DNA of 32,138 nucleotides from Minisyncoccota bacterium (GTDB lineage Bacteria > Patescibacteriota > Minisyncoccia > Phycocordibacterales > GCA-2747955), in assembly GCA_020628915.1 (NCBI GenBank), contig JAHDEI010000001.1, forward strand, positions 83,985-116,122, given 5' to 3'. The notes beneath the pieces are model-generated. The model worked only from the letters and a program-made list of their open reading frames with translations, ran no database searches and was not told the origin of the DNA. Position numbers and translations under genes: made by a program. Shown one piece after another: positions 765 to 24,236 of this stretch; position 1 is the first letter of the stretch, and each line of letters begins with the position of its first letter.

Positions 765-3700
765 TTATTGCAAATCTTCAATCATCTTCCGTAACTCATC
801 AATTTCTGCTTGTTGTTGTTTGGTGACTTCAAGAAGTGGTACGACCAACTGGGCATAATCGACTGCTTTATATCCAACGCTGTCTTCGAGCACCAGCTCT
901 GGGAATAACTCTTCAACCTCTTGCGCTATTACACCAAAATCTTGTCCATCTTTTTCATTCCACTCGTATGTATACGTATTTAATTTCAAAATGTCACGAG
1001 CTTTGTCTTTAAATGAGCCTAGGTTTTTCTTAAGCCGCTCGTCTGATGAATAAACAAATGCATTAGCCGTTACGGTTCCAGTAAATTGACCATCCCCAGA
1101 GACATCTAAAGCATCATTTGGTGCTGACACACCAATACCAACCTGTCCTCCTGAAATGTACAGATCTGAAGCAGCATCTAGAACCAGATCTACTCGCGAG
1201 CTTCCGTTACCATATCCTAAGTAGTACCCTCGTGTTCCAGCGTTATTTCTCCCCTCAAAATATCCATACCGAGTATTGCTTGGGTATTGCGCCGAGTGCA
1301 CTGAACCATTATTAGAAATCACACTCTTGGCATCAACTTGAAAGCCTCCATCCGCGCGAATAAGACCAGTCCCAGAATAAAGGTTTTTATTTTGGTATGT
1401 TCTCACCCACGTAGAATCAATCATATACATACCCCCTCCGTGCGTACCATTATACCAACCGGTATTTCCGTACATTCGCACCCACCCACCATTACCATCT
1501 CTGATAGTTCCTGCAGCAGAGTTAATTCCATGTGTGCCCATTGTCAGCGCTTGGGTTGCGGTGTGGTTTCCGAGATTGTCTGAAACACCCGAAGCAATTG
1601 TTGCTGGAGTTATACAGTTTGTTCCGTTTGCTGAACAAAGATTGCGAACCATAATATCTCCCGTTGACACTGAGATACCTCCCGTTCGGTTACCGTTATC
1701 CACAAAACTGATTTGATGCAATTGGCCAGATACTGACCCTCCGTTTCCTTGATATGAATATACTAGACCGTACTGATTACCAAATGTATCAGCAGCAGGG
1801 TCAATGTCATAGGCGTCTCCAATTGACCAAATACCCTGGACTTGTGAGGAACTGTAAGTTCCTGCGATACCGTAACGGTCTGTGATTGTTTGTGTAGGAC
1901 CTACTGTCAAACGAAGTCCGTTGTTTGTTCTAAATTCTGTCCGAGAATCTTTAACGTGTTGGATCGCCCACTGCCCATCACCGTCAAGAAAACCAATATT
2001 ATCTCCCTGCGATGCATATACACGACCATATGTGTCATCTTCTAGGTCACGAAATATTAATTGTGAAATGCCTGAGCTGTTTGAATCAAAATAAATAGCA
2101 GAACCCGCATCTCCATAGATTCTTTGTTGTGAAACACCAAAGAAAATATTTCTACCTCCTTGAATCCGAATACCGTTTCCTCCGAGAATATCAAATAGTT
2201 TTCCGGATGCGAGCGTGTGTACACGTAAATTTCCTTGGTAATTATCAAGCTGAATATTTCCATATGAACCTGAACCCAGCAGACGTACCTCCCCTCCTTC
2301 GTTTGTTCCGTCTTGAGGGTCAATTGAAACGTAACCCGCATTTACACTACCATTGAATGTTGCATCTCCTGTTGCTCCGTACACTCGTGCAGATACACCC
2401 GTAGCTCCATTACCAAAAAGGACATCTTTTCCTGAATAATAGTTAAGATAAATATGGTCGTTATTTCCTCCCGTTCCAAGAGATGAATCAATATGTAGAT
2501 TTCCATTTGTTGTTCGCAATCGCGAATATGCGCCCGCTGTTGTCCCCCACAGATTAAGATCTCGTCCTGTTGTTTGGTTACCTATAGCAACATTTCCTCC
2601 GTTGTAAATTGCTGTCGTTCCGCTTAGCGTCCACAGCCCACCTAGCCCGCCTGCTGCTACACAGTTTGCTCCGTTTTGGTCACAATATTGCGATGCCCCG
2701 ACAGCCCCTTCAACATCCAAAGTTAGTGAGGCATCTGGTGTTGTGTCGTTAATACCAACCGATCCATCACGCTCAATAGTAAAGGCTGGTGACCCCCCGT
2801 CTGATGAAGCTGCTGGACGAATCTTGAAAGGATGTCCCGTTTGAGATCCGTCTACACCCGATGCCCAGTAAGTCAGCACCCCACCTGTCTGGTTTGTTCT
2901 ATAGTACGTATAGGCATCTAAATTGTCCCCAGCACTAGTACTGATTTGTAAACGTGAGTTTTTCCCATTACCCCAGATCGTTGCTGAGTTTGAGCCCGTA
3001 CCCTTTTCAACCCTCAAGAGCTCCTCGTTATTCGCATAAATCCTTGTTAATGGTGTCGTCGCGCCAGGACTAGTTCTAAATGCCCAGTGTCCGTTACCAT
3101 CAAGAAGTCCAAAGTTAGGTGAGCCTGTACCGTTTTTATCACCCCATACTGTTCCAAGCTCCGTATTATCTGATCGACGAAGCACGATACCAGAATACCG
3201 AGCATGGTTTGAATCAAAGTAAAGTTCATCAGAACCGTCTCCGTAAAGATTCTGGCCTGTTTCTGACGTATTAAAATAAATATGCCGAGAACCAGTAACG
3301 ATAGATCCACCAGATCTAATATATCCAGAGGCATATACTGGACCATTACCATATAGTGTCCATCCATTACCATGGCCTAAAATACCGTAAACTGCAGCAT
3401 TATGATTGTACCCCAATACACCTCCATGCGGAGCAGAAAACGTTCGACCAACAATTCCATAGTTTTGAGACGCGTGCCCATATACTCCATAAGACGTACC
3501 TGTTGTTCCTGCATCAATTACCGCAGAAGGTCCCGTATGCCTTGCTACCGTTGTTCCAGTTGGATAAGTTATTTGATAATTACCATCCGTGTCACAGCCC
3601 CCTTCGCAACCTGCCCCAATCCAACCCTCAACTGCAACATTACCTGCGTGTCTAATATATGAACTATGGTCTGTCCATAATCCAGCATTATTAATATTTG

Positions 3701-5648
3701 TTGCGTCTAGACAGTTTGCTCCGGCCTCGTCACAGTACTCAATCGCTGCGATCTTACCGTTAACATCCAAAAGCGATCCGCCATCAAGCGTAGAGTCTCC
3801 AATACCAATACCTCCACCTGAGACGTAAAACAGATCATTTCCGTCTTCTAGAGCCATGTTAATGTAGTTTCCGGGTGACCCATATCCTAAATAAAATCCT
3901 CGAGTACCATCCCCTTTACGTCCTTGGAAATACCCGTAACGAGTGTTGTCATTCCATTCTGCCGTATGAGTTCGTCCTCCAAAAGCATCTAATACTTGCT
4001 TCCCGTCAATCGTAAGACCTCCATTCGCCTGTATTGCCTGATCCACAGTAAGATCTCCCCGTACTGTTACCTCTGGGTTGGTCCCAGAGCCTCCAGTATT
4101 ACCAAGATACACTCGTCCAGCTGAATAGTCATACCATATAACGTTTGAAACCGTCCCTTTGTCAGAATCACGGACATTAAAATCAGCATCGGTCACGTCT
4201 GTGTAAATATACAATCCTTGATTAAAGTTTGCATAATTTACACGTTGATCAAGTTTGGTTACGTTGTTGATTTTAAAGTAGTTTGCCACGTCTTTTGTGT
4301 GTTGGAAGGCCCATTGAGCATCTCCATCCAAGAACCCAATATTATCTCCTGTTGATCCATATACTCGACCGTATTCATCCCCAGCGTTATTAAAAAGTCG
4401 CAAACCTGAAACCGTAGCGTTATTTGAATCAAATCTCGTATATGCAGCAGATCCCCAATTAATTCTTTGTCCTGCTCCAGCAAATAGATCTCCTCCTCCA
4501 ATTCGAATATCGCCCACTGTATCAAGAGACGCTGATGGATTTGAGATTCCAATACCAACCTCGCCTGCTGGTCTATATACGTCTGCACCATTTACCGTCC
4601 ATAACTGGCTACCTAAAGAGCCTGCTGCTATACAATTTGCACCGTCGCCGTCACAATACTCTGTTGCACCTACTTTTCCACCCACATCAAGCCTCAAATC
4701 AGAATTAGGTGCAGTCTCGCCTATCCCCACCCTTCCATTACCCCGAACAATAGAAATTGCAGGCGTACCCCATGAGCCCCAGTATCTGTCGAGATGAAGC
4801 GTTGTATTGTCATTACTTAGTCTGAAACCAAAGAGCCCAGTATTTCCGCTCGAGAATTGAAGTTTTTGATTAGTTCCTGGTGTGTCAGATCGCACGGTTG
4901 TTGCAGAAAGATCCAATTGAGCTTTTGGAATTGCAGCTGATCCAATACCTACACTTCCTGTCTCTCGATATACATTCCCTGCATTTTCTAGCCAGAATCC
5001 AACGTTTGCTGGAGGAGTCGTACTAGATGTAACCACATCTGCAGGATCAAAACAGTTCGCTGCTGTTTCGTCACAATATAGTTGTGCTCCTACATTACCT
5101 TCAACATCCAACATCAATCCTGCGGTTGGATTTGTGCCACCAATAATCAAATTCCCCGCTGAGTTTAAAACGGCACGCGCCGTGTCCGAAGTCCAAAATT
5201 GTATACCTGCCGCTTCCCTGTTTCTTAAATAAAGAGTATTTTGTCCCAATTGTAGCCAAGAGCCATCTTGAGCAGTATATCCAGTAGCTGTATTGGCTAG
5301 CCTCACGACAGCAATGTTATCCTGTGCCTCAATATCAATATCGTATGCTGGTGTTCCACCCCCAATTGACAGAAATCCATCTAAAATAGTACCCCCATTG
5401 ACCACCAGTGAACCCAAAGAAAGACCCCCTGCCTTTACCTGAGAGGTTGCCGAGTCGTTGATTGGGGGCGCAACGTTGTTAGTTGGAGGAGCCCCAGTTG
5501 GGTTTGACCATTGTGCAGAAACAATAGAAAATCCTGAAAATAGTGCAAAAGAAACAATAGCTAGAGAGCCCAAGAGAGCCTTAATGGTTCGTTGTAACAA
5601 AGTAATCATAATAAACAAAGCATTACGTGTGTAATTTGTCTTCATCAT
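765..5648 (-). CDS. Giant modular tail-fibre-like surface protein with C-terminal peptidase S74 (intramolecular chaperone) domain
   Basis: C-terminus SSDERLKKNLGSFKDKARDILKLNTYTYEWNEKDGQDFGVIAQEVEELFPELV... is a typical S74 chaperone domain; N-terminal hydrophobic signal after MMKTNYTRNALFIM; repeated YCDxxxANC and GDNIGFLDGDxQWA modules. Start placed at the internal Met preceding the signal; the ORF track start is 5729. Confidence 0.88.
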   Translation of the reverse strand: MMKTNYTRNALFIMITLLQRTIKALLGSLAIVSFALFSGFSIVSAQWSNPTGAPPTNNVAPPINDSATSQVKAGGLSLGSLVVNGGTILDGFLSIGGGTPAYDIDIEAQDNIAVVRLANTATGYTAQDGSWLQLGQNTLYLRNREAAGIQFWTSDTARAVLNSAGNLIIGGTNPTAGLMLDVEGNVGAQLYCDETAANCFDPADVVTSSTTPPANVGFWLENAGNVYRETGSVGIGSAAIPKAQLDLSATTVRSDTPGTNQKLQFSSGNTGLFGFRLSNDNTTLHLDRYWGSWGTPAISIVRGNGRVGIGETAPNSDLRLDVGGKVGATEYCDGDGANCIAAGSLGSQLWTVNGADVYRPAGEVGIGISNPSASLDTVGDIRIGGGDLFAGAGQRINWGSAAYTRFDSNNATVSGLRLFNNAGDEYGRVYGSTGDNIGFLDGDAQWAFQHTKDVANYFKINNVTKLDQRVNYANFNQGLYIYTDVTDADFNVRDSDKGTVSNVIWYDYSAGRVYLGNTGGSGTNPEVTVRGDLTVDQAIQANGGLTIDGKQVLDAFGGRTHTAEWNDNTRYGYFQGRKGDGTRGFYLGYGSPGNYINMALEDGNDLFYVSGGGIGIGDSTLDGGSLLDVNGKIAAIEYCDEAGANCLDATNINNAGLWTDHSSYIRHAGNVAVEGWIGAGCEGGCDTDGNYQITYPTGTTVARHTGPSAVIDAGTTGTSYGVYGHASQNYGIVGRTFSAPHGGVLGYNHNAAVYGILGHGNGWTLYGNGPVYASGYIRSGGSIVTGSRHIYFNTSETGQNLYGDGSDELYFDSNHARYSGIVLRRSDNTELGTVWGDKNGTGSPNFGLLDGNGHWAFRTSPGATTPLTRIYANNEELLRVEKGTGSNSATIWGNGKNSRLQISTSAGDNLDAYTYYRTNQTGGVLTYWASGVDGSQTGHPFKIRPAASSDGGSPAFTIERDGSVGINDTTPDASLTLDVEGAVGASQYCDQNGANCVAAGGLGGLWTLSGTTAIYNGGNVAIGNQTTGRDLNLWGTTAGAYSRLRTTNGNLHIDSSLGTGGNNDHIYLNYYSGKDVLFGNGATGVSARVYGATGDATFNGSVNAGYVSIDPQDGTNEGGEVRLLGSGSYGNIQLDNYQGNLRVHTLASGKLFDILGGNGIRIQGGRNIFFGVSQQRIYGDAGSAIYFDSNSSGISQLIFRDLEDDTYGRVYASQGDNIGFLDGDGQWAIQHVKDSRTEFRTNNGLRLTVGPTQTITDRYGIAGTYSSSQVQGIWSIGDAYDIDPAADTFGNQYGLVYSYQGNGGSVSGQLHQISFVDNGNRTGGISVSTGDIMVRNLCSANGTNCITPATIASGVSDNLGNHTATQALTMGTHGINSAAGTIRDGNGGWVRMYGNTGWYNGTHGGGMYMIDSTWVRTYQNKNLYSGTGLIRADGGFQVDAKSVISNNGSVHSAQYPSNTRYGYFEGRNNAGTRGYYLGYGNGSSRVDLVLDAASDLYISGGQVGIGVSAPNDALDVSGDGQFTGTVTANAFVYSSDERLKKNLGSFKDKARDILKLNTYTYEWNEKDGQDFGVIAQEVEELFPELVLEDSVGYKAVDYAQLVVPLLEVTKQQQAEIDELRKMIEDLQ

Positions 5649-5697
5649 ACGACGTTTCGGAGCCTTTTGCAATTTAATATGTAGATTGTTTTTGGGT

Positions 5698-5720
5698 AGG
5701 GTGCGCCGTAGGCGCACCCT
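5698..5720. repeat. GC-rich perfect hairpin (REP-like)
   Basis: AGGGTGCGCC-GTA-GGCGCACCCT, 10-bp arms. Confidence 0.6.
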
Positions 5721-5842
5721 TGAATTCAATTATGGATTTGATATACTCCTCTTGATGATACGTTCGCCATATGGCGGGCGTTTCTCTTTATCAAAACGTC
5801 TCGTTCTCTTGGGAACCTGACTACATAACAATTAAATATAGT

Positions 5843-7201
5843 ATGTTTGATTTAAAACAAATAAACCTAGTTCTTGCTCAACTAGAAGAAGAAAAAGGGG
5901 TTAAAAAAGAGCAAATTATCGAAGCAATTGAGTTCGCGCTTGCTTCTGCGTACAAAAAAGAGTTTGGAAAGAAAGGACAGATGATCACATCAAGGTTCAG
6001 TCTGGATTCTGGGGCAACAGAATTCTTTCAAATTAAGACTGTGGTAGACCCAGAAATGGTCCTTATGCTCGAAGAAGACGAGCCTATGCCAAATCAAGAT
6101 GATATCGCAGAAGAAGAACGAAAAGTACGACACAACCCGGAACAACACATGTTCCCTGAGCAAGCACGCCTGATTAAAGCAGACGCACAAGTCGGAGACG
6201 AACTTGTCTTCCCTCTTGAAAACAAGACCGATTTTGGGCGAATTGCAGCAATGACAGCAAAACAAGTAATCATTCAAAAAATTCGTGAAGCAGAAAAAGG
6301 GTTCCTTTCAGAAAAATTTGGAGGACGCCAAGGAGAAATTGTCCAAGGAACTGTCCAGCGCGTTGAGCGAGGAAATATTTTTGTTGACCTAGGAAAAGCA
6401 GAAGGAACAATTCCTTTTGGAGAACAAATTCGTTCAGAAAGATACAAGACTGGAGACCGAATCTCAGGATACCTCTATTCTGTAGATGATGGAGGGCGTG
6501 GTGTATTTCTGCGGCTGTCTCGGACTCATCCAGAATTTTTGCGTCGTCTATTCGAACGAGAGGTTCCGGAACTAACTGACGGAGCTATTGAAATCAAAGG
6601 AATCGCGCGTGAACCAGGATTCAGATCTAAAGTTGCCGTTGTGTCTCACAACGAAGAAGTAGACCCGATTGGAGCCTTGGTAGGACAAAATGGATCCCGC
6701 GTACAGACTGTAACCTCAGAATTGTCAGGAGAACGAATTGATATTATCGAATGGTCAGAAGACACAGATGACTTTATCAGGCAAGCACTTTCCCCTGCTG
6801 AGATTTTGAATGTGGAAATTACAGAAACTGACGAAGAGCGAATCGCAAAAGTACAAGTTGCTGAAGACCAATTCTCTCTTGCAATTGGACGTGGTGGACA
6901 AAATGTTCGTCTCGCAGCAAGACTTACTGGATTCAAGATCGACATTGAACAACTAGACGCTGAAGGTAACGTTATTGATCCAGAAGAGCGGAAGAAGAGA
7001 CTAGAAGAAGAACGTGCCGCTGCAGCAGAATCCAAAGAGGCAGAAGCAGTAGGAACGAACGAAGAACAAACGCCTGAGGAAAATACAGAAGAGACTCCGG
7101 AAGAAGCTACAGAAACAACTAACGCACCAGAGGATGTATCGGAAGAAACCGACGAAGAAGCACCCAAGGCGGATGAAGAATCTCCAGAAGAAAAAGAATA
7201 G
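5843..7201 (+). CDS. nusA: Transcription termination/antitermination factor NusA
   Basis: MFDLKQINLVLAQLEEEKGVKKEQIIEAIEFALASAYKKEFGKKG N-domain, S1 domain (GEIVQGTVQRVERGNIFVDLGKAEGTIP), KH domains (DPIGALVGQNGSRVQTVTSELSGERIDIIEW; SLAIGRGGQNVRLAARLTGFKIDI); acidic C-terminal tail. Start corrected from the ORF track start 5771. Confidence 0.96.
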   Translation: MFDLKQINLVLAQLEEEKGVKKEQIIEAIEFALASAYKKEFGKKGQMITSRFSLDSGATEFFQIKTVVDPEMVLMLEEDEPMPNQDDIAEEERKVRHNPEQHMFPEQARLIKADAQVGDELVFPLENKTDFGRIAAMTAKQVIIQKIREAEKGFLSEKFGGRQGEIVQGTVQRVERGNIFVDLGKAEGTIPFGEQIRSERYKTGDRISGYLYSVDDGGRGVFLRLSRTHPEFLRRLFEREVPELTDGAIEIKGIAREPGFRSKVAVVSHNEEVDPIGALVGQNGSRVQTVTSELSGERIDIIEWSEDTDDFIRQALSPAEILNVEITETDEERIAKVQVAEDQFSLAIGRGGQNVRLAARLTGFKIDIEQLDAEGNVIDPEERKKRLEEERAAAAESKEAEAVGTNEEQTPEENTEETPEEATETTNAPEDVSEETDEEAPKADEESPEEKE

Positions 7202-7211
7202 AAACCAAATA

Positions 7212-7245
7212 CAACACAAAAAGCGCCAAGGCGCTTTTTGTGTTG
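7212..7245 (+). terminator. nusA terminator
   Basis: CAACACAAAAAGCGCC-AA-GGCGCTTTTTGTGTTG, 16-bp perfect stem. Confidence 0.85.
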
Positions 7246-7246
7246 A

Positions 7247-7274
7247 TTGACAAATATATACATGTCTGTAAAAT
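7247..7274 (+). promoter_or_regulatory. Sigma70-type promoter for candidate ncRNA 1
   Basis: TTGACA (7247-7252), 16-nt spacer, TAAAAT (7269-7274). Confidence 0.65.
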
Positions 7275-7280
7275 ACTCGA

Positions 7281-7498
7281 TTAGGTCACACAGGAGAGAC
7301 GCCTATGATTGTAGTGTAATGGAGTAAGCACCATAAACGCTATAACCAAAAGATTCGGGGAAAACGGCTTATGAAATGGATCTAACCCTTCGGGGTATGT
7401 ACGTTATTCAAGAGTTGCAGGACTCAATGACTAAAACCTGTAGAACAAAATTCAACCACGGCTCACCTGCCCATTTGCGGACGGTGAGCCTTTTTCTT
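7281..7498 (+). ncRNA. Candidate structured ncRNA 1
   Basis: No convincing ORF; promoter upstream; UUCG hairpin ACCC-TTCG-GGGT (7385-7396); ends in terminator GGCTCACC...GGTGAGCC + T-tract. Confidence 0.6.
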
Positions 7499-7500
7499 TT
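7460..7500 (+). terminator. Terminator of ncRNA 1
   Basis: GGCTCACC(7460-7467)...GGTGAGCC(7483-7490) followed by TTTTTCTTTT. Confidence 0.8.
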
Positions 7501-7509
7501 TTATAAGAC

Positions 7510-7537
7510 TTGACATTATATATATAATGTGTATAAT
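7510..7537 (+). promoter_or_regulatory. Consensus promoter for candidate ncRNA 2
   Basis: TTGACA-N16-TATAAT, both hexamers perfect. Confidence 0.8.
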
Positions 7538-7544
7538 GATATTA

Positions 7545-8012
7545 TCACTTTTAGGTGCGCGGATACATTTCGCTCGAACATGCGAGCTTGCACCCAAATT
7601 TGAAGTATCGCCGGAAGGTATGATACGACATTGATCTTTCATAGGTTAGTGTGAGGAATCCAATAAAAAAGGATACAAAATTCTCGCACAACGATGTTAC
7701 AAGTGTGAGAATCAACCCAGCCAGGCCGTCAAGAGGAGGACGTATGATCTGGACTTAGCCCTTCGGGGCATATGATTCAACCCAAAAGTCGACCAACATA
7801 TAGTCGCAACCTTATCTAGCAACATCTAGCCGAAAATAGGGGCCCAATATTTTGCCCCATTATATTGTCGCAACAATTTTCGTTGACCTGCCAGAGAGCC
7901 GCTTGCCGCTCGATCTTCGATAGACCTACCGGGGCAGCCAACTAAAAAATTTGTGATACATGAAAAAAAGGGACCCAGCCAGTACGCATTGCCGAGGCGG
8001 GTCCATTTTCAT
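7545..8012 (+). ncRNA. Candidate large structured ncRNA 2 (~470 nt)
   Basis: Consensus promoter, no ORF, many hairpins: GCTCG-AACATG-CGAGC; GTATCgCC-GGAA-GGtatGATAC; ATTCTCGCAC...GTGTGAGAAT; GCCC-TTCG-GGGC; GGGGC...GCCCC; ends in a GGACCC...GGGTCC hairpin. Confidence 0.65.
7971..8010 (+). terminator. Terminator of ncRNA 2
   Basis: GGACCCaGCC...GGCGGGTCC then ATTTTCATTT (weak T-tract). Confidence 0.6.
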
Positions 8013-8040
8013 TTACAAGATTTTTTCGTATAAACCTTTT

Positions 8041-8049
8041 TGTTATAAT
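8041..8049 (+). promoter_or_regulatory. Extended -10 promoter of ppa
   Basis: TGt-TATAAT 25 nt upstream of the ATG. Confidence 0.55.
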
Positions 8050-8074
8050 CTTTGAACCTAATACTTATTAATAT

Positions 8075-8593
8075 ATGAACTTATTACACGATATCCCTGC
8101 CGGGTCTGCAGACGAAATGAACGTGATCATTGAGATCCCTCGAAATTCGAAAAACAAATACGAAATTGACAAAGAAACGGGCATGATTGCGCTGGACCGA
8201 GTTATGCATACTGCACAAGACTACCCTTTTGATTATGGTTTTGTACCACAAACATTATTTGATGATGGGGATGCACTTGATGTAGTAGTCATGACCACAT
8301 ACCCTCTGGCCCCTGGGATTTTGGTGCGATGTAGACCTGTTGCAATTATGGGAATGCTGGACTCAGGAGAACAAGATGACAAGGTAATTGCTGTCCCAAC
8401 AGATGATCCACGATTTAATAACATCAAAGATCTCGAGGACATCAACCCTCACTTTCTCAAAGAGATGGAGCACTTTTTCTCAACGTACAAAAAAATCCAA
8501 GAAAAAGAAGTTGCGGTCACCGGGTTCAATGGTGTAGCCGAGGCAAAACAAGCATTCGAAGATTCGGTAAAAATGTACCAAAATGGAAAATAG
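8075..8593 (+). CDS. ppa: Inorganic pyrophosphatase
   Basis: IIEIPRNSKNKYEIDKETGMIALDRVMHTAQDYPFDYGFVPQTLFDDGDALDVVVMTTYPLAPG: family I soluble PPase signature. Confidence 0.96.
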   Translation: MNLLHDIPAGSADEMNVIIEIPRNSKNKYEIDKETGMIALDRVMHTAQDYPFDYGFVPQTLFDDGDALDVVVMTTYPLAPGILVRCRPVAIMGMLDSGEQDDKVIAVPTDDPRFNNIKDLEDINPHFLKEMEHFFSTYKKIQEKEVAVTGFNGVAEAKQAFEDSVKMYQNGK

Positions 8594-8631: not shown

Positions 8632-8651
8632 AGATTAATCTACAATTCATG

Positions 8652-8679
8652 TTGTCTGATAATATCAATCAGCTATACT
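8652..8679 (+). promoter_or_regulatory. Promoter of the Mur-ligase leader RNA
   Basis: TTGTCT-N16-TATACT. Confidence 0.6.
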
Positions 8680-8685
8680 GGAATT

Positions 8686-8847
8686 AACAGTCCGGTTCGT
8701 AGGTTTGGCGCGGCCTCCCAAATAACACGCGACGAGCTGATAGATGTTCCGGGCAAGGCGGACCCTGACAAGGGCCCCTCGCGTTGGGGTCCGCCGCCAC
8801 ATGGGAGGCATTGGGGAGCAGCATTCGTGCGCCTCCCCTTTCTTTTC
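8686..8847 (+). promoter_or_regulatory. Candidate riboswitch/attenuator leader upstream of the MurE-like ligase
   Basis: GCCTCCC (8713-8719) and GCCTCCC (8831-8837) both complementary to GGGAGGC (8803-8809); inner 9-bp stem GGCGGACCC(8757-8765)/GGGTCCGCC(8787-8795); terminator GGGGAG...CTCCCC + TTTCTTTT ending about 10 nt before the ATG. Confidence 0.65.
8813..8846 (+). terminator. Terminator hairpin in the leader
   Basis: GGGGAG-ca-GCA-TTCG-TGC-gc-CTCCCC-TTTCTTTT. Confidence 0.75.
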
Positions 8848-8856
8848 AAAAATATC

Positions 8857-10119
8857 ATGAAAAAAATAATCAAATCAGTCATCCCAGAGTCTCTCTTTGG
8901 AAAGTTGGTATTGCCGTATCATTTTGCTCTCGCATGGCTTGGAGCGGTGAATAATGGGCATCCATCAAAGCAACTCAAAATTGTTGCAGTAACTGGAACA
9001 AAAGGTAAATCATCTGTCGTCGAAATCACAAATGCAATGTTAGAAGGCGCTGGCTTTACAACAGGAGTCTCAGGGACTGTTCAATTCAAAATCGGCGATT
9101 GGTCAGAGGCAAACAAATTTAAACAGACAATGCCAGGGCGGTTCTTCTTGCAAAACTTTTTTAAAAAAGCATTAGATAAAAAGGTTGACTGGATGGTTAT
9201 TGAGGCGACTTCTGAGGGAGCAAAGCAGTACCGTAATCGCTTTATTCATTTTGATGCTCTCATCTACACCAACCTTGCGCCGGAACACATTGAATCACAC
9301 GGTGGATATGAAAATTACAAACAAGCAAAACTTGGTATTATCAAGCACTCTCTCGAAAAGTCAGTGAAAAAAAATCGCTCTCTTGTGGTGAACATGGATG
9401 ATAAAGAAGGCGCTGACTTTATTAATTTTGATATTGAAAATAAAATTCCGTATTCTCTTGATGATCTGAAGGATATTGCTGTCAAAGAACAAGGCTTAGA
9501 GTTCACCTATAAAGATGTTCGTTTCGTATCCCCTCTTTCTGGAGAATTTAATATCTACAATCTTCTGGCGGTTATTAAGTTTGGAGAGTCAATTGGTGTG
9601 GAATTAGAAAATATGCAAAAGTCCCTCTCCCAATTTGGAAATATTCCTGGTCGTGTGCAACGTATTGACGAGGGACAAGATTTCGAAGTAGTAGTTGACT
9701 ACGCACATACTCCTGACTCTTTAGAAAATATTTATAAAGCTTTTTCACACGCAAACAATCGTATTTGTATTCTTGGGAACACCGGAGGAGGTCGCGACCA
9801 ATGGAAGCGTCCTGTGATGGCAAAGATTGCTGACAACTACTGTGACCAAATCATTCTTACCAATGAAGACCCTTATGACGAAGATCCTCTTGCAATTTTA
9901 GAACAGATGAGAGAAGCAATTACTGATACAGAATATGAGGTTATCTTTGACAGACGTAATGCTATTCACGCAGCGGTGAAACGTGCAGATACAGGTGATG
10001 TGGTGCTGGTAACAGGGAAAGGAACTGATGCATTTATCATGGGGCCAAATGGAACAAAAATTCCTTGGTCAGACACAGAAATTTGTCACGATGCTCTCAA
10101 AGAACGAATGTCTTCTTAG
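8857..10119 (+). CDS. MurE-like Mur ligase (lacks the usual N-terminal UDP-MurNAc-binding domain)
   Basis: VAVTGTKGKSSVVEITNAMLEGAGF P-loop, NLAPEHIESHGGYENYKQAK, VVDYAHTPDSLENIYKAF, GNTGGGRDQWKRPVMAKIA: Mur ligase central and C-terminal domains. Start at 8857 rather than 8827. Confidence 0.9.
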   Translation: MKKIIKSVIPESLFGKLVLPYHFALAWLGAVNNGHPSKQLKIVAVTGTKGKSSVVEITNAMLEGAGFTTGVSGTVQFKIGDWSEANKFKQTMPGRFFLQNFFKKALDKKVDWMVIEATSEGAKQYRNRFIHFDALIYTNLAPEHIESHGGYENYKQAKLGIIKHSLEKSVKKNRSLVVNMDDKEGADFINFDIENKIPYSLDDLKDIAVKEQGLEFTYKDVRFVSPLSGEFNIYNLLAVIKFGESIGVELENMQKSLSQFGNIPGRVQRIDEGQDFEVVVDYAHTPDSLENIYKAFSHANNRICILGNTGGGRDQWKRPVMAKIADNYCDQIILTNEDPYDEDPLAILEQMREAITDTEYEVIFDRRNAIHAAVKRADTGDVVLVTGKGTDAFIMGPNGTKIPWSDTEICHDALKERMSS

Positions 10120-21937: not shown

Positions 21938-23662
21938 ATGAATATGAAACAGGGAGTCGCATTAGGCATAATGCAGTCGGGAAAGAATGTTTTTTTAACC
22001 GGACAAGCGGGATCTGGTAAAACGTATATCTTAAATAGGTATATTGATTTTTTGCGTGCACACGAAATTGATCCCGTTGTGTGTGCCTCTACTGGAATTG
22101 CTGCAACTCATCTGGGGGGATCAACGATTCATTCATGGTCAGGAGTTGGTATCAAAGAAAATATTACTGACTACGATATTGAAATTCTCCAAGAAAAACA
22201 ATATTTATGGAAACGATTTGAACACGCAAAGGTACTTATTTTAGATGAGATTTCAATGATCTCGCCTGACTTGCTCGACTCAATTGATCGTATTTTGCGT
22301 GCTTTCAAATTTTCTGCGGAACCATTTGGGGGTATGCAAGTTATTTTTTCTGGAGACTTTTTTCAACTACCCCCCGTTAACGCACGCAACAAAAACCCTG
22401 AACGAATGTACGCATGGCAGTCAGGTGTATGGGAACATTTAAATCTAAAAATTTGTTACCTCGAAGAACAGCACCGCCAAAGCGGGAAATCAAGATTGAA
22501 TCGAATCCTTAATGACATCCGTGACGGGGCTGTTTCTGAAGACTCTATGAATCTCTTGCGAGGTCGATATATGAAAGAGCCTCAAGGATTTCCTGATGCA
22601 ACAAAATTGTATACGCACAACGTAGATGTTGATCGTATTAATCAAGAGGCATTGGATGCCTTGCCTGCCCTCCCCCGTTTTTTTGACATGTCGTCCAAGG
22701 GAAATAAAAGGCTGGTTGAGACTTTGAAAAAAGGAACCCTTGCTCCCGAACGGCTCGGAGTAAAAGTTGAAGCAAAAGTTTTATTCGTAAAAAATAACTA
22801 CGAAAAAGGCTATATGAACGGATCGGTTGGTGTTGTCACCGACTTTTCTGAGGCAGGATACCCAGTTGTCGAGCTAGTCTCAGGTGCTGAGATCATTGCA
22901 GAGCCTGAAACTTGGTCTCTCGAAGAAGGAGGAAAAGTCCTCGCATCAGTCATGCAAGTCCCATTGCGTTTGGCATGGGCGATCACTATTCATAAATCAC
23001 AAGGTATGTCACTCGATTCGGCTGAGATTGATTTGTCAAAAGCATTTGAATCAGGTCAGGGATATGTTGCCCTCTCTCGACTGCGCTCACTCGAAGGTCT
23101 CAAATTAATGGGTTGCAACAAACAGGCACTTGAGGTGAGCAATGTTGTCTTAGAACAAGATTCGACCCTATTAGAGCTCGCTGCCGAACACCAAGAGATC
23201 TACGAAGAATTTTCAGAAGACGAAAAACTAAACCGGGTCGAATCATTTCTCTCGTCAATTGGAGCAACGTTTAATGAAGCAGTGGTCATTGAAAACACCA
23301 AAAAATTAAAACGGAAGAGACGAAAAAAACAAACTGGGATTCAAACCACACATGAAAAAACAAAAGAGCTCGTCAAACAAGAGTACTCGATTGAAGAAAT
23401 GGCTCATGTACGAGAATTGACTGAATCAACAATCCTGAAACACCTTGAAGTATTACGGTTATATGAAAAAAATCTTGATATGGGCTATCTCCTACCTGAT
23501 GAAGAAACAATTAAACAAGTACAAAACGCACGTGATCATATCGAAAGAAAAAATGATAAAGAAGATTTTTTAGAAAGCGGCGAAGTAAAATTGCGTGCAC
23601 TATTTGATTATCTGGATGGAGATGTTTCGTACGAAAATATTAGGTTGTCGCTCATCGCTTGA
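21938..23662 (+). CDS. PIF1-like superfamily 1 DNA helicase with C-terminal helix-turn-helix domain
   Basis: NVFLTGQAGSGKTYILNRYIDFL, ASTGIAATHLGGSTIHSWSGVG, LILDEISMISPDLLDSIDRILR, GGMQVIFSGDFFQLPPV, AWAITIHKSQGMSLDSAEIDL, GQGYVALSRLRSLEGL. Start at 21938 or the GTG at 21848. Confidence 0.93.
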   Translation: MNMKQGVALGIMQSGKNVFLTGQAGSGKTYILNRYIDFLRAHEIDPVVCASTGIAATHLGGSTIHSWSGVGIKENITDYDIEILQEKQYLWKRFEHAKVLILDEISMISPDLLDSIDRILRAFKFSAEPFGGMQVIFSGDFFQLPPVNARNKNPERMYAWQSGVWEHLNLKICYLEEQHRQSGKSRLNRILNDIRDGAVSEDSMNLLRGRYMKEPQGFPDATKLYTHNVDVDRINQEALDALPALPRFFDMSSKGNKRLVETLKKGTLAPERLGVKVEAKVLFVKNNYEKGYMNGSVGVVTDFSEAGYPVVELVSGAEIIAEPETWSLEEGGKVLASVMQVPLRLAWAITIHKSQGMSLDSAEIDLSKAFESGQGYVALSRLRSLEGLKLMGCNKQALEVSNVVLEQDSTLLELAAEHQEIYEEFSEDEKLNRVESFLSSIGATFNEAVVIENTKKLKRKRRKKQTGIQTTHEKTKELVKQEYSIEEMAHVRELTESTILKHLEVLRLYEKNLDMGYLLPDEETIKQVQNARDHIERKNDKEDFLESGEVKLRALFDYLDGDVSYENIRLSLIA

Positions 23663-23686
23663 CAATCAGTTTTTGATAAGTATAAT
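23659..23686 (+). promoter_or_regulatory. Consensus promoter of ncRNA A
   Basis: TTGACA-N16-TATAAT, both perfect. Confidence 0.8.
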
Positions 23687-23691
23687 ATGTA

Positions 23692-23848
23692 GACGAGTTT
23701 TGGTCTTAATAAATAAAAAACTCGAGACGACGCTGAGCGAACGCTCCAGGAAGACTTGGTGAGGGCATAGATTTATAAATCCTCTCTCGGTCTGTGTACT
23801 GACCAGTCTTCCTGTTTGATGTCCTACACTAGATGTGGGGCTTTTTTA
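23692..23848 (+). ncRNA. Candidate ncRNA A
   Basis: CGAGTTTT...AAAACTCG hairpin; AGGAAGACT(23748-23756)/AGTCTTCCT(23805-23813) stem enclosing GGTC-TGTGTACT-GACC; terminator GTCCTACA-CTAGA-TGTGGGGC-TTTTTT. Confidence 0.65.
23821..23847 (+). terminator. Terminator of ncRNA A
   Basis: GTCCTACA-CTAGA-TGTGGGGC then TTTTTT. Confidence 0.8.
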
Positions 23849-23849
23849 T

Positions 23850-23877
23850 TTGACAAAGTCTGTCAAATCACTATAAT
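23850..23877 (+). promoter_or_regulatory. Consensus promoter of ncRNA B
   Basis: TTGACA-N16-TATAAT; inverted repeat ATTTGACA-AAGTC-TGTCAAAT covers the -35. Confidence 0.8.
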
Positions 23878-23883
23878 AATACA

Positions 23884-24101
23884 AGTACTGAACTTTCTGT
23901 TATTCCTGCCTGGGGAAATGGGTTTCCCAGGATGCTCCCGAAAGGTAGAAGCACACAGGTACGTAGATATGTTTCAATACGAAACTGGATGTTTCGAGAG
24001 TGAGGGCTCTCTCTATTCCTCGCTTTCGAGACATCCGATAATCAATATTATTAACAAACTTTGTTCTTTGCTTTGTACGGATCCCACACGGGGTCTTTTT
24101 T
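23884..24101 (+). ncRNA. Candidate ncRNA B
   Basis: CCTGGGGAAA-TGGG-TTTCCCAGG hairpin; 19-bp stem GGATGTTTCGAGAGTGAGG/CCTCGCTTTCGAGACATCC with three G-U pairs; terminator GATCCC-ACAC-GGGGTC-TTTTTT. Confidence 0.68.
24080..24101 (+). terminator. Terminator of ncRNA B
   Basis: GATCCC-ACAC-GGGGTC then TTTTTT. Confidence 0.8.
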
Positions 24102-24129
24102 ATTTCCAAAAATCAGCTATACTAAAAAT

Positions 24130-24236
24130 GTTGTACTTTTATCGGACACTCGAGCGCGTCCCCCTTCCTCCCCCCCTCCCGGAAGCAAGCTTGAGTGTCC
24201 GACCAGCCTTTCGCCTTCATTGTGAGGGCTTTTTCT
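24130..24236 (+). ncRNA. Candidate ncRNA C with C-rich loop
   Basis: TATACT at 24118-24123; 14-bp stem TCGGACACTCGAGC(24142-24155)/GCTTGAGTGTCCGA(24189-24202) presenting a 33-nt loop with CCCCCTTCCTCCCCCCCTCCC; terminator AGCCTTT...GGGCT-TTTTCT. Confidence 0.55.
24205..24235 (+). terminator. Terminator of ncRNA C
   Basis: AGCCTTTCGCCTTCATTGTGAGGGCTTTTTCT. Confidence 0.7.

Follow-up and report, generated by a model that had tools for sequence, protein, structure and literature searches.

An interval of about 470 nt between nusA and ppa carries a consensus promoter and hairpins, and was originally predicted to encode a highly structured non-coding RNA. Is this a new large RNA of a conserved class, or a transcript of more local origin? 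The window in which the question was addressed is the whole 32,138-nt stretch analysed (C20:83985–116122 of genome G000, which comprises 730 kb in 31 contigs). By ppa, the closest named relatives are Paceibacteria MAGs (Patescibacteria/CPR). The predicted transcript is termed RNA2 here. A second unit, RNA1, overlooked in the original prediction, lies in tandem just upstream at 7247–7502 (Table 1).

Table 1. Features of the nusA–ppa slot, in window coordinates.
Feature	Position	Strand	Description
nusA	5771–7201	+	left neighbour; name from original prediction and sequence similarity
nusA terminator	7212–7245	+	perfect inverted repeat; bounds the slot on the left
RNA1 promoter	7247–7274	+	TTGACA-16-TAAAAT; congener G001 has a similar one in the corresponding position
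RNA1	~7281–7497	+	tandem unit upstream of RNA2, no convincing ORF
29-nt motif, RNA1 copy	7370–7398	+	around CCC-UUCG-GGG
RNA1 terminator	7460–7502	+	strong; GGCTCACC...GGTGAGCC, T-rich tail
RNA2 promoter	7510–7537	+	TTGACA-16-TATAAT, sigma-70-type, 12/12 consensus
RNA2	7545–8012	+	predicted ORF-less transcript of ~465 nt; start inferred from −10 box, end from terminal hairpin
29-nt motif, RNA2 copy	7743–7771	+	79% identical to RNA1 copy
RNA2 terminal hairpin	7971–8014	+	GGACCC...GGGTCC (stem-loop 7971–8004), weak tail ATTTTCATTT
ppa promoter region	8020–8055	+	TATAAT at ~8044–8049; similar in congeners; right border of the slot
ppa	8075–8593	+	right neighbour; name from original prediction and sequence similarity

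Promoter, ends and coding potential of RNA2

The perfect TTGACA-N16-TATAAT promoter of the original prediction is exact at 7510–7537. Genome-wide, 72 of the 75 sites matching at least 11 of 12 consensus positions are intergenic even though predicted genes make up 86% of the sequence, which renders the RNA2 promoter call credible. Genes were called across the genome by a simple script that missed some short ORFs. Transcription of RNA2 as a separate unit is suggested by its own sigma-70-type promoter and terminal hairpin, together with the separate nusA terminator and ppa promoter region.

The interval had been described as free of ORFs, and plus-strand ORFs lying wholly inside 7545–8012 indeed reach 35 codons at most. 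No sustained coding signal was seen in any frame of RNA2, and no Pfam match in six frames with stops masked. The GGAA and UUCG tetraloop hairpins reported originally (GCC-GGAA-GGU and CCC-UUCG-GGG) are present, as is the terminal hairpin at 7971–8004. RNA2 has a GC content of 46%, compared with a mean of 36% for intergenic DNA of the genome. At the sequence level it has the attributes of a stand-alone bacterial sRNA gene, namely an exact promoter, no ORF and a terminator, here weak. No long antisense match able to name a target of RNA2 was found in the genome.

Comparison with known RNAs

A covariance-model check had been proposed with the original prediction. Rfam 15 (4227 families, including RNase P, tmRNA, 6S, SRP, raiA, ROOL, GOLLD and OLE) gave no match in the window at gathering score and, at a permissive threshold, nothing within 7552–8012 up to E=10; no Rfam riboswitch matched RNA2. 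The reported absence of RNase P and tmRNA signatures was also correct, with a tmRNA gene and an RNase P candidate located elsewhere in the genome. tmRNA is recognised by tRNA-like ends, a tag ORF and its occurrence as one gene per genome. ARAGORN detected none in the window, and the Rfam-confirmed tmRNA gene of the genome is at C29:63832–64240, so RNA2 was rejected as a tmRNA. It was likewise rejected as RNase P RNA, whose P4 core ACAGAANNNGGCUUA is absent from RNA2 and present in the candidate at C23:94–290 (L162). This candidate scored 37.9 bits against RF00010, below the gathering cut-off of 100, and its core ACAGAATCCGGCTTA follows shortly after the start region that was matched. Curated thresholds can thus miss housekeeping RNAs in this lineage. 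Two further ideas for RNA2 were rejected: a tandem-repeat or guide array, since no arrays were found, and an origin from a phage or plasmid, for which no match was meaningful.

tmRNA and bacterial RNase P RNA are similar in length to RNA2, and the genome's tmRNA also has an 11/12 promoter; RNA2, however, has the core of neither and is not conserved. With OLE, ROOL, GOLLD and raiA it shares a stand-alone, structured-looking, intergenic form of a few hundred nucleotides, but those RNAs are conserved between species, while RNA2 is not, has no Rfam match and folds at background level. Lineage-restricted bacterial intergenic small RNAs resemble it in having their own promoter and terminator, lacking an ORF and occurring in one or few species, although most are shorter and the RNA2 transcript is only predicted. 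Also comparable are the orphan small-gene units found in this genome and in the congeners, which combine a strong promoter, a short transcript and a lack of relatives; unlike RNA2, which has none beyond four codons, they contain a Shine-Dalgarno-led ORF. RNA2 is unlikely to be RNase P RNA, tmRNA, a ppa leader or a member of a conserved class of large RNAs.

Folding of RNA2

The minimum free energy of RNA2 is −127 kcal/mol (z −1.84), and 3 of 100 shuffles fold equally well. Reruns with other shuffles gave z of −1.6 and about −1.8 (−1.79), and removal of the terminator reduced the signal to −1.14. Thirty intergenic segments of the same genome had z between −7.1 and +1.2 (middle value about −1.8), 24 coding segments were centred near −0.3, and tmRNA gave −3.1 and −2.2 in two runs. 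The folding of RNA2 is therefore ordinary for intergenic DNA of this genome, since its z with the terminator included is at the middle value of those segments, and the description of the interval as dense in hairpins and highly structured is not supported. As folding is only at the intergenic background, there is no sign of selection on RNA2 structure. Alternative hairpins can be drawn at 7649–7712, where one strand can pair with either of two flanking repeats. A bistable switch was rejected here, as comparable arrangements occurred in 133 of 300 shuffles.

Conservation and the nusA–ppa slot

Conservation was assessed in a family sample of nine genomes, made up of two congeners (G001 and G002) and seven other members, in 97 relatives and in 387 genomes of the class. 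The searches scored few candidates per genome, so very diverged homologues would escape them. As a yardstick, tmRNA gave full-length matches in the two congeners (79% and 77% identical). RNA2 gave only chance matches in the nine family genomes (best E 0.04 over 20 nt), no homologue in the 97 relatives, where the sole match covered 28 nt outside RNA2, and nothing except itself in the 387 class genomes. With the tmRNA control positive and folding at background, the large, ornate RNA of a conserved class implied by the original prediction was not borne out. Because homologues were not found, there is no sign of selection on the RNA2 sequence either.

Among 64 other Paceibacteria loci with both genes, 59 have an interval of no more than 100 bp between nusA and ppa. 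Within the genus, whose three genomes are this one, G002 and G001, it measures 873, 741 and 2015 bp, respectively. When these slots were compared, the ppa promoter region was recovered, and the window and G001 also had the RNA1-type promoter in common; of the cargo between nusA and ppa nothing could be aligned among the three genomes, only the border promoters. G001 carries two secreted-protein-like ORFs and an ORF-less unit of ~471 nt (L076:3467–3937, z −4.1) directly before ppa, and G002 a unit with a 52-aa ORF. The G001 ORF-less unit is itself an orphan, with no homologue except itself in 60 relatives.

RNA1 and the shared motif

RNA1 and RNA2 share a 29-nt motif, of which no third copy was found in the genome or the compared loci. 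Read as RNA, it forms a CCC-UUCG-GGG hairpin with one compensatory pair (A-U to G-C); read as peptide, it gives YEMDLTLRGM and YDLDLALRGI, which differ by conservative changes. Neither reading is significant by itself. One frame of RNA1 scores as coding-like over 7346–7441. Each unit also contains one Shine-Dalgarno-led ORF of four codons, MIVV in RNA1 and MIWT in RNA2, with putative initiation sites at 7305 and 7744, respectively.

Strong promoters in the genome

A genome-wide list was made of strong promoters for which the next predicted gene is over 150 nt away. Most lie ahead of short orphan ORFs, often for membrane-like proteins, that have good Shine-Dalgarno sites; examples of such orphan small-protein units are C29:39798, C17:7603, C30:1086 and C28:8818. 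ORF-less sites include those of tmRNA, rRNA, RNA1, RNA2 and two further units of the window (A and B, see below). In strength the promoters of tmRNA and rRNA equal that of RNA2, and they are likewise ORF-less. No Rfam match was found at two other sites, C10:9130 and C16:19102. As the set holds both kinds, RNA2 could be grouped with the stable RNAs or with orphan genes whose frame has been lost.

Interpretation

With a probability of about 0.5, we interpret RNA2 and the tandem RNA1 as a non-coding, species-restricted unit, presumably transcribed independently, in the variable cargo slot that separates nusA from ppa. The main rival, to which we give appreciably less weight and which we regard as doubtful, is that both are remnants of short-lived orphan coding genes whose promoters and terminators still stand. 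In the congeners' slots strong promoters precede orphan ORFs, orphan small proteins are encoded by most of the genome's other strong-promoter units, and the raised GC content of RNA2, the conservative changes in the peptide reading of the motif and the coding-like RNA1 frame all point the same way. The units are, however, dissimilar to the congeners' proteins, have no Pfam match in any frame and retain no remnant beyond a few codons, and the peptide reading is rivalled by the hairpin with its compensatory pair. We consider it improbable that RNA2 and the G001 ORF-less unit are a single fast-evolving structured RNA gene of the genus, its place and size kept and its sequence changed beyond recognition. 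The two agree in position, length (468 and 471 nt), strong promoter and lack of an ORF, and the G001 unit folds well, but they share no alignable sequence, RNA2 does not fold above background and G002 carries an ORF at the corresponding place. That they form one extremely fast-evolving ~470-nt structured RNA gene upstream of ppa, a new class evading sequence-based detection, is less probable still.

Translation of MIVV and MIWT from RNA1 and RNA2 would account for the presence of one four-codon ORF after a Shine-Dalgarno-like site in each unit. Such ORFs of up to six codons appear in 11–20% of shuffles (exactly four codons in 2–4%), conservation is lacking and the bulk of each transcript would be left untranslated, making a short-peptide mRNA a very unlikely explanation. 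Slightly less probable again is a cis-acting leader, with RNA2 reading through its weak terminator to control ppa. RNA2 is on the ppa strand, 63 nt upstream of the gene, with a weak U-tract and alternative hairpins that can be drawn within it; against this, the separate ppa promoter region is common to the genus, other ppa genes have no such leader, the hairpin arrangement is matched by many shuffles and no riboswitch was matched.

The absence of a known family, the absence from sister species and the ordinary fold make RNA2, read as a species-restricted non-coding unit, look like a young transcript peculiar to the species and not like a new, conserved RNA machine. Showing no sign of selection on structure or sequence, it may have no function. 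If functional, it would be a small RNA specific to the lineage that would use the unpaired stretches separating its small hairpins to pair in trans, and would not act as a conserved ribozyme or RNP core. Most likely, the RNA2 sequence is a filler specific to this species, placed in a variable slot of a small CPR genome. A strong promoter, a missing ORF and hairpins in one genome can thus overstate RNA machinery. Variable slots of this kind, in which strong promoters accompany small orphan ORFs or non-coding units, are possible birthplaces of new transcripts in Paceibacteria. Among open-licence papers, no survey of CPR small RNAs was found by title or abstract.

Other units in the window

Units A (~23694–23852) and B (~23886–24112) are ORF-less and stand in tandem at 23660–24112. 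Each has its own terminator and a perfect TTGACA-16-TATAAT promoter. No Rfam family matched them and no homologue was found in 97 relatives. With z of −5.0 and −4.9, respectively (the pair lying at about −4 to −5), they fold much better than RNA2 and are RNA candidates. A third, short hairpin unit follows at 24139–24230 (GGACACTCGAGC...GCTTGAGTGTCC); its loop is rich in C and its end resembles a terminator. A GC-rich leader at 8650–8860, with strong inverted repeats GGCGGACCC...GGGGTCCGCC and CCTCCC...GGGAGG, has a 9/12 promoter on one side and a Mur-ligase-like gene (8827–10119) on the other. On the minus strand, 765–5729 holds a very long, repetitive ORF (up to 1654 aa) whose start resembles a signal peptide and which probably encodes a secreted or surface protein.
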